63,758 nucleotides of DNA from Solirubrobacterales bacterium. Its GTDB lineage: Bacteria > Actinomycetota > Thermoleophilia > Solirubrobacterales > Solirubrobacteraceae. Below the pieces are notes generated by a model. The model saw nothing but the letters and a program-made list of their open reading frames with translations. It had not been told where the DNA came from and ran no database searches. The translations under genes were made by a program, and so were the position numbers. The stretch lies in NCBI GenBank assembly GCA_027449125.1, contig DAIDME010000092.1, positions 1-63,758 on the forward strand. The letters run 5' to 3'. Of the stretch, positions 11,266 through 56,049 are shown one piece after another. The stretch's first letter is position 1, and each line of letters begins with the position of its first letter.

Positions 11266-11304
11266 GGGAGGGGTTTTGCGTCGTGACGACGCAAAACCCC
11301 TCCC
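11266..11304. repeat. Perfect 39-bp palindrome
   Basis: Left arm 11266-11284 begins GGGAGGGGTTTTGCGTCG; the right arm ending at 11304 is its exact reverse complement, around a single central G. As RNA this is an 18-bp stem with a TGA loop. It lies 30 bases after the secreted-protein stop and is not followed by a T-run, so if it ends transcription it is not a classical terminator. See findings for related palindromes. Confidence 0.9.
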
Positions 11305-13726: not shown

Positions 13727-13809
13727 GGCGCTCTGCGGCTGCGGGCGCGGCGTCCAGCGGGGCCGCGAGCTGACCGCCTCCAGCCCCCAAACCAAGGCTT
13801 GCGGAGGAG

Positions 13810-13852
13810 CTTTGGGGGTTTCGGGCGCTGCCAGCGCCCGAAACCCCCAAAG
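13810..13852. repeat. Perfect 43-bp palindrome between convergent genes
   Basis: A 21-base left arm (13810-13830, starting CTTTGGGGGTTTCGGGCG) and an exact complementary right arm (13832-13852) surround a single C. It lies in the 254-base gap between the sensor kinase (ending 13726, plus) and citrate synthase (ending 13981, minus), where a bidirectional terminator would be expected. Shorter CCCCCAAA-type matches flank it at 13784-13791 and 13873-13877. Nothing else is seen in this gap. Confidence 0.9.
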
Positions 13853-13980
13853 CGGGTGTGAGGCGAGGTAGTTTGGGAGCGCGGGGCTGTTGCGGGGCCG
13901 CGGGTCCGAGCCCGGGCGCGCTCGCCGTGCCAGGCTGGTCGGTCGGGCCGGCCGCCGCAGCAGCGGCGCGGCGGCCGGGA

Positions 13981-26637: not shown

Positions 26638-26971
26638 GCCGGGTCGCCCGGGCGGTGCTTTGGCGGGCAACTGGGGCTTGATTATGCCAGCCCGGCTTCC
26701 GCCCCTGTCGATCGAGGGGTTTGCTCGTGCCAGGCATCGTGTCGCGTCCGGCTCGGGGCGCTGGCACCGCCGTCCGGGCGCTGCGGCTGGTGGTCCGCCA
26801 CCGCCGGTAGCCGGTGGCTGGCTTCGGGCTGGGCCTGCGGGCGGGGATGCGTTCAGGCTGCTGTCGGCCGCCGGGTGAACACGACCGCACGCCGGCGAGG
26901 ATTGCCCGCGCCGGCTAGCCGCAGAGCGGGTGGGCCAAATGCGTGCCCCAGCATGTATTTGGCCCGTCCCT
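26638..26971. other. Intergenic region with hairpins only
   Basis: No gene is supported in these 334 bases. It contains a GCCACCG / CGGTGGC stem (26797-26818, loop of 8) after the helicase gene and the palindromic repeat at 26932-26965 described separately. Open frames here have the composition of shadows. Confidence 0.6.
26932..26965. repeat. Palindromic repeat, copy 1
   Basis: GGGCCAAATGCGTGC (26932-26946), loop CCCA, then GCATGTATTTGGCCC (26951-26965). The arms pair fully as RNA with two G-U pairs. The right arm is identical to 15 bases of the palindrome inside pxpC (38120-38171). It lies 7 bases beyond the 3' end of the VOC gene. Confidence 0.85.
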
Positions 26972-37773: not shown

Positions 37774-38607
37774 TCAGGGCACCGCCCGGAATCGTACGCG
37801 CGTACCCGGTCGCAGCTGCGCCGCCAGCGGGATGTCGTCGCTGTGGAGCACCGCGATCACCGGGTAGCCGCCGGTCGTGGGATGGTCTGAGAGCAGCAGG
37901 ATGGGCCGTCCGTCGGGCGGTACCTGGATCGCCCCGGGCACGAGTCCCTCGGAGCGCAGCTCGCCTTCCCGGGCACGAGCTAGCGCCGGTCCGTCGAGCC
38001 GCACGCCGACCCGGCTTGCTTGGTGGCTGGCCGTGAACTCCGCGCTGGTGAGCAGCGTGAGCGCCGCCGGCGTGAACCAGTCCGCACGCGGACCCGGCAC
38101 CACGCGCAACGCCGTTCCCGGTTCGGAGGGGCCAAATACATGCTCTGGCATGTATTTGGCCCCTCCGAACCCCAGCTCCAGCACATCACCGGCCCGCAGC
38201 GGCGCCGGCCCGAGCCCGGTGAGCGTGTCGGTGGCGGCGCTGCCGAGCGTCAGCGGCACCCGCAGTCCGCCGGCGAAGGCGATGTAGGTCCGCAGCCGCC
38301 TGACCGCCGTGCCCACCCGCAGCTCCTCGCCCGCCTCCACCTGGAAGGCGTCGTACATCACCGCCCCGCGCACCGGCGCCCCGGCAAGCGCCACCAGCGC
38401 CCTGTCGTGAAAGCGCAGGCGCGGGCCGGTGAGCGTGGTCTCGAGCGCCGCCGCGCCGGCGTGGTTGCCCACGAGCCGGTTTGCGAGGATCAGCGCGGGG
38501 CGGTCGGCGGCGCCTGAGCGCGGCACGCCGATGTGCGCGAAGCCCGGACGGCCAAGATCCTGGATGGTCGTCAGCGGGCCGGGCGCGACGACCTCGACGC
38601 GCGTCAC
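37774..38607 (-). CDS. pxpC: 5-oxoprolinase subunit C (biotin-dependent carboxyltransferase-like, KipA/PxpC)
   Basis: 277 residues; with PxpA and PxpB it opens 5-oxoproline to glutamate using ATP. Family landmarks are VVAPGPLTTIQDLGRPGFAH, GVPRSGAADRPALILANRLV, the FAGG segment and the C-terminal LSDHPTTGGYPVIAVLHSDD. The start overlaps the end of pxpB (ATGA). Residues around GFGGAKYMPEHVFGPSEP are encoded by a perfect 52-bp palindrome (38120-38171) in what is a variable loop in the family. The frame stays open, so the protein is presumably functional with an altered loop. Confidence 0.92.
   Translation of the reverse strand: MTRVEVVAPGPLTTIQDLGRPGFAHIGVPRSGAADRPALILANRLVGNHAGAAALETTLTGPRLRFHDRALVALAGAPVRGAVMYDAFQVEAGEELRVGTAVRRLRTYIAFAGGLRVPLTLGSAATDTLTGLGPAPLRAGDVLELGFGGAKYMPEHVFGPSEPGTALRVVPGPRADWFTPAALTLLTSAEFTASHQASRVGVRLDGPALARAREGELRSEGLVPGAIQVPPDGRPILLLSDHPTTGGYPVIAVLHSDDIPLAAQLRPGTRVRFRAVP
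38120..38171. repeat. Perfect 52-bp palindromic repeat inside pxpC (copy 2)
   Basis: Arms 38120-38143 and 38148-38171 (24 bp each, exact complements) with loop TCTG. The inner 15 bp of each arm (GGGCCAAATACATGC) equal the right arm of the repeat at 26932-26965. The repeat is translated in frame within pxpC. Confidence 0.95.
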
Positions 38608-40283: not shown

Positions 40284-40577
40284 GTGTCCAAGCTCATCGC
40301 ACTGACAACCCGCATCGGCCGCATCTACGGCGAGCTCGAGCGCGCTCAGGCGGCGCTGCTGCGCCCCGTATGCAGCGCGGGCGGGGAGGGGAGGGGCGGC
40401 CACGCCGCCCCTCCCCTCCCCGCCCGCTTCCTCACCACGCAGGGCCTCAGGCAAACGGCCGGATCTCGTAGCCCGCGCCGATCAGCCGGTCGCGCAGCGC
40501 GACCGCCAGCGCCGCCGCGCCGGGCGTGTCGGAGTGCAGGCACAGCGACCGGTAGCGACCGCTGTCCGCCAGCGTGA
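40284..40577 (+). CDS. Possible small protein gene interrupted by a palindrome
   Basis: GTG 40284 has AGAGG 7 bases upstream and opens a frame starting MSKLIALTTRIGRIYGELER then AQAALLRP, a plausible short amphipathic helix. The frame then runs into the 51-bp palindrome (40377-40427) and onward antisense to pxpA until 40577, with shadow-like composition. If real, the original gene probably ended near 40377. It lies between the divergently facing lysR promoter and pxpA. Evidence is limited to the ribosome site and the helix-like start. Confidence 0.3.
   Translation: MSKLIALTTRIGRIYGELERAQAALLRPVCSAGGEGRGGHAAPPLPARFLTTQGLRQTAGSRSPRRSAGRAARPPAPPRRACRSAGTATGSDRCPPA
40377..40427. repeat. Perfect 51-bp palindrome
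   Basis: Arms 40377-40400 (starting GCGGGCGGGGAGGGGAGGGG) and 40404-40427 are exact 24-bp complements with a CAC loop. It lies 20 bases beyond the 3' end of pxpA, between pxpA and the lysR promoter. No T-run follows on either strand. Confidence 0.95.
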
Positions 40578-41190
40578 GCGCCTGCGTGAGCGCCGCCTCA
40601 GGCGCCAGCAGCGCCCCCTCCTGCCCGCGCGGCACGAGCGTCCCGTCCGCGCGGTAGGCGCGGTCGGCGAAGCCCTCGGCGACGGCGTCCACGCCGCGCG
40701 CGGAGGCCGCCTGCAGCAGCTCCGAGCCGGCCGGCGCGAGCAGCTTCAGCGGAGCATCGGTGGCCCCGATCGCGTCGCGCACCGCCTCGAGCACCGCCTG
40801 GGCGTGGACCGGGTCGACCGAGGCCCGGTGGTAGAGCGCCCCGTGTGGCTTGACGTAGCGTACGTGCCCGCCCGCCACCACCGCGGTCGCCTGCAGGGCG
40901 GCGATCTGCTGCGTCACCTGGTCGCGCAGCAGCGCCGGCTCGACCTTCAGATCCCGGCGCCCGAACCCCTCGCGGTCGAGGAACGAGACGTGCGCGCCGA
41001 TCGCCTTGTGGTGGCGCACCGCCGCCTCGCAGACGCGGTGCATCGTCTCGCCGTCACCGGCGTGGAAGCCGCAGGCGACGTTCACGCTCGAGACGCCCGC
41101 CATGATCGCCTCGTCGTCGGCCACGCCCGCGTCGCCCGGGCGCTCGCCGACGTCCGCGTTCAGATCGATCGCACGCGCGGGCGCGTCCAT
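40447..41190 (-). CDS. pxpA: 5-oxoprolinase subunit A (LamB/YcsF family)
   Basis: 247 residues. The family start IDLNADVGERPG, the core SVNVACGFHAGDGETMHRV, the block KPHGALYH and the end LCLHSDTPGAAALAVALR are all present. It is the catalytic partner of PxpBC in ATP-dependent 5-oxoproline hydrolysis. It begins 4 bases after the ileS stop, so it is probably co-transcribed with ileS, and is separated from lysR-pxpBC by 272 bases. Confidence 0.95.
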   Translation of the reverse strand: MDAPARAIDLNADVGERPGDAGVADDEAIMAGVSSVNVACGFHAGDGETMHRVCEAAVRHHKAIGAHVSFLDREGFGRRDLKVEPALLRDQVTQQIAALQATAVVAGGHVRYVKPHGALYHRASVDPVHAQAVLEAVRDAIGATDAPLKLLAPAGSELLQAASARGVDAVAEGFADRAYRADGTLVPRGQEGALLAPEAALTQALTLADSGRYRSLCLHSDTPGAAALAVALRDRLIGAGYEIRPFA

Positions 41191-56011: not shown

Positions 56012-56049
56012 ACGGCCAGATACCGGCAGAATTGCCGGTATCTGGCCGT
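56012..56049. repeat. Perfect 38-bp palindrome
   Basis: ACGGCCAGATACCGGCA (56012-56028), loop GAAT, and its exact complement (56033-56049): 17-bp arms. It lies in the 375-base gap between the DUF1203 gene end and the oxidase promoter. Nothing else is supported in this gap. Confidence 0.95.

Follow-up and report, generated by a model that had tools for sequence, protein, structure and literature searches.

The pxpC locus

The DNA analysed here, a stretch of 63,758 nucleotides referred to as the window, belongs to a genome (G000) with an assembly of 3,165,141 bases in 113 contigs and a completeness of 92%. It contains a pxpC-like gene, the open reading frame of which matches the Pfam family CT_A_B (E 1.2e-81), and within this frame lies the palindrome GGTTCGGAGGGGCCAAATACATGC-TCTG-GCATGTATTTGGCCCCTCCGAACC, with 100% complementary arms around a 4-nt loop, which is translated as GFGGAKYMPEHVFGPSEP and introduces no stop codon (Table 1). 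The sequence and the translation of the ORF thus bear out the preliminary description of a perfect palindrome with 24-bp arms, set in frame within pxpC.

Table 1. Coordinates of the palindromic repeat, its parts, its host gene and the other copies in G000.
Feature	Position	Strand	Remarks
pxpC-like gene	37774..38607	-	277 aa, carboxyltransferase subdomain A/B; palindrome in frame
Palindrome, pxpC copy of the family	38120..38171	.	perfect, 52 bp, 24-bp arms, TCTG loop
Left outer arm GGTTCGGAG	38120..38128	+	locus-specific; mirror of 38163-38171
Core, type A, 34 bp	38129..38162	.	GGGCCAAATACATGC-TCTG-GCATGTATTTGGCCC
Right outer arm CTCCGAACC	38163..38171	+	mirror of 38120-38128
Second window copy	26932..26965	.	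between convergent ORFs; two transitions in left arm, GGGCCAAATGCGTGC
Seven G000 copies	C89:5478, C92:26932, C92:38129, C102:62588, C102:95983, C25:26057, C106:33439		arm search

The pxpC palindrome has an arm score of 24. The window holds 16 palindromes with an arm score of at least 12, and three third-order Markov copies of it hold 0-2 (best score 13); at a score of at least 14, 35 palindromes were found in 446,595 real bases versus none in one fourth-order Markov copy. Folded as single-stranded DNA, the pxpC palindrome is predicted to reach -31.5 kcal/mol versus a shuffled mean of -6.35, and the copy at 26932 reaches -14.7 versus -6.23 kcal/mol. An origin of the palindromes by chance or through faulty assembly is extremely unlikely: although the assemblies are drafts, and contigs of the related species G018 end at or near several copies, palindromes occupy identical positions in separately assembled species and the Markov controls contain none of such size, on which grounds this reading was rejected. 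Elsewhere in the window, directly downstream of a pxpA-like ORF (40447-41190), there is a G-rich perfect palindrome with 24-bp arms (40377-40427), which is perhaps a terminator.

The stretch of pxpC bearing the palindrome differs in length and sequence from relative to relative. The palindrome is present in three species (G000, G018 and G006), with both the core and the outer arms of G018 and G006 differing from those of G000; between G000 and G018, 7 of the 18 encoded residues differ and the palindrome is still perfect. In G012 and G021 the stretch is equally long, with 39 residues between the same anchors, and lacks the palindrome, and a clean insertion in pxpC was therefore rejected. Of the earlier proposal that a variable loop had tolerated an insertion, the variability stands; a recent insertion is not shown by these comparisons. 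Neither of the two outcomes named beforehand as counting against the element, a genome with just these two copies or a loop kept in all relatives minus the palindrome, was fully obtained.

A family of dispersed palindromes

The palindrome at 38120-38171 belongs to a small family of dispersed palindromes. The 15-base arm occurs with 0-1 mismatches at 14 places in the G000 assembly, all forming seven close pairs; eight matches with two mismatches were every one unpaired, and for the reversed control the counts were 1 and 4. The pattern GGGCCAAA-N-TTTGGCCC is matched exactly by six of the seven copies, and the 34-bp core of the pxpC copy recurs identically, loop included, at C89:5478 and C102:62588, so that the pxpC, cofD and lipB copies have the same 34 bases. 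The abi copy is a hybrid, with TACATCC in one arm and TACATGC in the other. The inner 15 bp, said earlier to be common to the pxpC palindrome and 26932-26965, are exact in the right arm, whereas the left arm is off by two transitions. The broader claim of a sequence-conserved palindrome that occurs at intergenic positions as well as in frame inside genes was confirmed: the genome has seven clear copies, and not just the two of the window, and a fadH-like gene holds a second in-frame copy.

The unit of the family is about 50 bp long, an extent chosen because conservation fades about 8 bp beyond the 34-bp core, and is built from a pair of half-sites (consensus GANYNGRKGGGSCAAAKRCAYNC), each about 23 bp long and placed face to face across about 4 bp. 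A possible eighth copy in G000, decayed, lies upstream of gltB; it was kept apart from the clear copies because model R1 does not match it (no match at E 5). In a sample of G000, the matches of model R1 were confined to the six copies identified there before.

Other palindromes of the window are shared as well. The GGGGTTTTGCGTC core of the palindrome at 11266-11304 occurs also at C102:18557-18607 of G000, with the extra outer arms CCGCGA/TCGCGG, and has one match with three mismatches in G016, making 2 of 28 genus genomes altogether. The TTTGGGGGTTTCGGGCGCT arms of a third shared palindrome (13809-13853) recur at L189:1815-1855, in the rplL locus on contig C26 of G000. A palindrome with 17-bp arms at 56012-56049 (ACGGCCAGATACCGGC...) is similar to the family only at its ends and gives no match to model R1.

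Distribution among related genomes

Relatives were represented by one genome per species, in draft assemblies. G018, of the same genus, carries ten whole copies and a half copy, G006 four, G021 one and G013 two decayed ones; the trmD2 copy of G018, found on two overlapping contigs (84 bases, 98.8%), was counted once. Among 101 genomes of the genus, family and order, the strict type A pattern matched in G000 and G018 only, and with up to three mismatches it matched in 3 of the 28 genus genomes. When 84,980 species genomes were scanned, matches came from two contigs of a single MAG, Actinomycetes bacterium DBS1-3.bin51, at the positions known from G018, and from a contig of Planococcus, where the match was taken for chance. 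A looser pattern matched 22 of the 28 genus genomes, yet the control count was as high or higher in 20 of the 28; the standouts were G018 (11 versus 4), G006 (7 versus 1) and G000 (10 versus 4). It was with this pattern that a second core, type B (GGGCCAAAGGCACAC), was seen in G018 and G006, type B being searched for in the 28 genus genomes and in viral contigs. The viral contigs gave no match to the type A pattern or to the wider A/B pattern, and a sample of 400,000 bases from G012 yielded no more than two weak matches to model R1, with E 1.1 and 1.9.

Alignment of flanks, which reaches 74-85% identity at pxpC, cofD/HMG-CoA lyase (HMGL), lipB, fadH and abi, identified orthologous places at pxpC and lipB (G000, G018 and G006), at cofD/HMGL, the fadH-like gene and the abi-like gene (G000 and G018), and at the locus termed 96k (G000 and G021). 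The fadH copy is found also in G006 and, decayed, in G013, where the abi copy is decayed too. In G018, 96k is the sixth shared locus: contig C215 begins there within a palindrome of type B, which gives a truncated model match with E 0.008. Six of the seven G000 positions are thus common to G018, which indicates that those copies are old; the seventh (26932) was not placed in G018, its flanking protein being without a match in that genome. At the fadH and 96k places G012 carries palindromes of unrelated sequence (L096:1596-1647 and L185:1430-1472), the former of which is single-copy by exact pattern in the 28 genomes.

Concerted change of the cores

Copies in one genome resemble each other more than orthologues do. 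At all six shared places the core is of type A in G000 (TACATGC/TACATCC) and of type B in G018 (GGCACAC). Over the 15 arm positions the mean distance is 4.1 between orthologues, versus 0.73 between paralogues in G000 (six loci) and 0.0 in G018 (five loci), the contrast being based on those five loci at which each species has a whole copy. Among the 252 possible divisions of the ten copies into two fives, a contrast as large as that observed is attained by none but the species split and its mirror image. G013 has the core TCCACAC in each of its two copies, at fadH and abi, both of them decayed. In G006 the core is GGCACAC at pxpC and lipB and TGCACAC at fadH, the form at C260 being decayed. Within-genome likeness against orthologue difference, together with the G013 and G006 cores, indicates that cores are alike within genomes. 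Most positions are thus old, and the cores are homogenised within genomes. G018 retains two type A copies (C13 and trmD2) alongside nine of type B, one of them the half copy, which means that homogenisation is incomplete or that the type A copies came later. Taken together, the results suggest an undescribed repeat and some process that keeps its copies alike within each genome.

Genomic context of the copies

With ORFs chosen by G+C content at codon positions, the copies at cofD/HMGL, lipB, abi (overlapping a gene start) and gltB are placed between divergent genes, those at 26932 and 96k between convergent genes, and those at trmD-rplS between genes of the same direction. The abi copy overlaps the start of a gene with an AbiEi_4 domain (L013:5874-6875). 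In the trmD-rplS interval of G018 (L030:3344-3460 and L088:1-120), two family palindromes with different cores lie about 30 bp apart, adjoining an imperfect duplication of the region, and two contigs end there.

The convergent placement at 26932 and 96k, and the abundance of long hairpins in this genome at an arm score of at least 14, are what would be expected if the copies were ordinary transcription terminators or RNA hairpins, alike by coincidence. Such an explanation is very improbable: several copies occupy divergent regions, and two are located within the genes pxpC and fadH; visual inspection showed no T-run after the copies inspected; and the wobble-type mismatches, also judged by eye, affect one strand or the other depending on the copy. 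A search of Rfam with 12 loci gave no match at gathering score and seven sub-threshold matches to microRNA precursors. The terminator reading was rejected on account of the coding and divergent copies. A plain regulon was likewise rejected, given the divergent, convergent and coding placement.

The coding copies, in pxpC and the fadH-like gene, are both in frame, and the fadH copy, carried by four species in one of which it is decayed, is read in another reading frame than the pxpC copy. The loop of fadH is 24-25 residues long in the four species that carry the family and 13, 14, 16, 17, 22, 25 and 29 residues long in relatives without it; the loop of 25 residues (G012) holds an unrelated palindrome and that of 22 (G023), by eye, a shorter one, the AT-rich inverted repeat CTGAGGTTTCT...AGAAACCTCAG (L103). 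The notion that the loop is always longer with a palindrome was dropped, as G005 has 29 residues and no palindrome. An in-frame insertion at fadH is plausible, with the loop lengths as mixed evidence. Within genes the repeat may persist by occupying a variable stretch and by having no stop codon in the frames used.

Pairing of the arms and half-site conservation

At the five G000-G018 loci, 19 changes in the core are mirrored in the opposite arm versus 2 unmirrored, and in the outer ten pairs 9 are mirrored versus 23 unmirrored; by locus, mirrored versus unmirrored outer changes number 3 and 1 at pxpC, 4 and 4 at cofD, 2 and 4 at fadH, and 0 and 7 at both lipB and abi. Arm matching is therefore firm in the core and patchy outside it. 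The 15-bp core arms are identical in 16 of the 22 copies that could be aligned without gaps (alignment A1, which omits the G013 fadH and abi copies, the half copy of G018 at 96k and the possible gltB remnant of G000). Of the 550 cells in A1, 87.3% are paired and 94 have changed on both sides, versus a shuffle mean of 42.9 (0 of 500 shuffles reaching 94) and at most 25 in slid versions. The corresponding score is 0.399 versus 0.163 shuffled and at most 0.113 slid, and for the outer ten pairs alone 0.517 versus 0.233 and at most 0.148, where 10 pairs are changed on both sides, a count reached by 117 of 500 shuffles; these comparisons are to be read with the fact that shuffles ignore kinship, the 22 copies include orthologues, and related sequences can exceed shuffles without any structure.

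Among the 44 arms, the half-site has A at position -7 in 32, a pyrimidine (Y) at -5 in 38, G at -3 in 34 and a purine (R) at -2 in 44, followed by GGGSCAAAKRCAYNC, with little conservation past -8. In the four copies with at most two of the five outer pairs formed, A at -7 and Y at -5 are each kept in 7 of 8 arms, which implies that the sequence is constrained apart from pairing.

This constraint is what would be expected of binding sites for a DNA-binding protein, such as a chromosome organiser or regulator, the specificity of which shifted between species while the sites followed. The fixed half-site positions even where the outer arms pair badly, the positions common to species and the core change at all six G000/G018 loci are consistent with such a protein. 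It is possible, though unlikely, that this is the explanation: G018 holds both core types together, the TCTG loop is common to three unlinked G000 copies, some covariation is present at variable outer positions where a dimer would not need it, and the divergent, convergent and coding placement suggests no regulon.

Gain and absence of copies

At least one copy has clearly been gained, namely C13 of G018, where the alignment has 57 columns, mostly palindrome, that are filled in G018 and empty in G000, G012 and G006. No palindrome with an arm score of at least 13 was found at the trmD loci of G000, G012, G006, G013 and G021, where G018 has two family copies, at HMGL/cofD and lipB in G012, or at lipB in G013, G008 and G026. 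The trmD-rplS duplication of G018 aligns too poorly to serve as a filled/empty pair.

The C13 gain, the two G018 copies at a trmD locus free of such palindromes in five relatives and the identical 34-mer at three loci are features of a very small MITE- or REP-like element, moved by a transposase and repeatedly re-entering or replacing the palindromes at these loci; the accessible texts of PMC10969869 and PMC3733652 put MITE copies of 39 bp and intragenic REPs, respectively, on record. Even so, this account is unlikely, because the element would have had to enter each of six loci independently and at one and the same place, which demands strong target choice. At offsets 0-15 no flush direct repeat of at least 4 bp occurs in more than 2 of the 22 copies, a result that leaves room for target-site duplications of 2-3 bp. 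Type A arms occur in G000 as close pairs only, with no lone arm at 0-1 mismatches, so that no longer element with such ends was seen. The two Y1_Tnp genes of G000 stand, by eye, beside TnpB-like ORFs, and their loci (3,363 and 2,292 bases) contain no GGGCCAAA.

A possible mechanism of homogenisation

Directly supported by the data are the dispersal of the repeat, its mostly shared places, the concerted cores, the mirrored core arms, the half-site constraint and one gain. The reading preferred here, with a probability of roughly 0.45, is that these short dispersed palindromes make up a new family of repeats, the arms of which would be matched by template switching within hairpins and the cores of which would spread by copying between loci. 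The unit would form a DNA hairpin, inside which template switching would match the arms, strongly in the core and partly outside it. The core might then spread from locus to locus by overwriting existing palindromes, through ectopic gene conversion, template switching in trans or re-entry, and the fixed half-site positions may be read by a putative factor that made or spreads the copies. The hybrid abi copy of G000, a single case, fits piecewise copying. It is quite unlikely that the process is hairpin-directed and homing-like, with one winning core overwriting the palindromes at fixed places, coding ones included, and a factor reading the half-site. Against the preferred reading stand the outer arms, only partly mirrored and at lipB and abi not at all, the two type A copies of G018, and the unrelated palindromes of G012 at fadH and 96k, which this model leaves unexplained; no candidate for an acting factor was found.

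Comparison with known repeats

A literature search that included actinobacteria, with subscription papers mostly outside its reach, retrieved no description of the family. The palindromic elements of Rickettsia (RPEs), to which the preliminary description likened the repeat, are, in the accessible text of PMC10969869, palindromic repeats of about 150 bp with a conserved peptide, found between genes and in frame in unrelated genes. The likeness holds for the intergenic and in-frame occurrence, the latter in the unrelated genes pxpC and fadH-like. It fails, as far as that text describes RPEs, for size (about 50 bp here) and for the peptide, which is not conserved, as the residue differences between the pxpC copies of G000 and G018 show, the repeat being read in more than one frame. 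In addition, the genomes of G000 and G018 have 7-11 copies each, and the core is replaced in concert.

REPs of the GTAG/CGTC superfamilies, associated with RAYT transposases, are likewise short dispersed palindromes sometimes located within genes according to the portion of PMC3733652 available, so that an intragenic location alone is not new. Their usual number exceeds 100 per genome in the accessible part of PMC2817692, in contrast to seven copies in G000 and ten whole ones in G018. None of the 22 copies has a GTAG/CGTC tag reading towards the core; in either orientation, one of the four tag words lies within 14 bp of 5 of the 22, at differing places. Unlike REPs, the family has identical core arms in most aligned copies; in the 92% complete assembly of G000, no transposase was found linked to it. 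Bacterial MITEs, such as QMITE1, span 39-400 bp in the available text of PMC10969869, and the family agrees with them in its non-autonomous size, inverted repeats, and one clear gain, with filled and empty sites at that one locus (C13). It may differ in that no duplication of at least 4 bp was seen in more than 2 of the 22 copies and no parent element in G000, and it differs in that core arms change together and cores are homogenised.

Perfect inverted repeats with arms changing together occur in coding sequences of Nematomorpha mitochondria, where template switching has been discussed (PMC6649704, in its accessible portion); the in-gene copies are similar in this respect, but there the repeats are those of single genes, whereas here one core is common to unlinked loci. 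Correction of quasipalindromes by template switching, as presented in the available parts of PMC7202029 and PMC8604942, would match the arms within one palindrome but alone does not place one core at unlinked loci.

What is new here is that at the six places shared with G018 the core differs in the same way, a change between genomes made in concert. For long repeats such as rRNA genes, concerted evolution is well known; in the present family its units measure about 50 bp and lie at unlinked places, some of them in coding sequence. Should this be confirmed, the family would provide a compact natural system for separating copying between loci from arm matching within a hairpin, and a case of a protein stretch that follows a DNA palindrome while the peptide varies.
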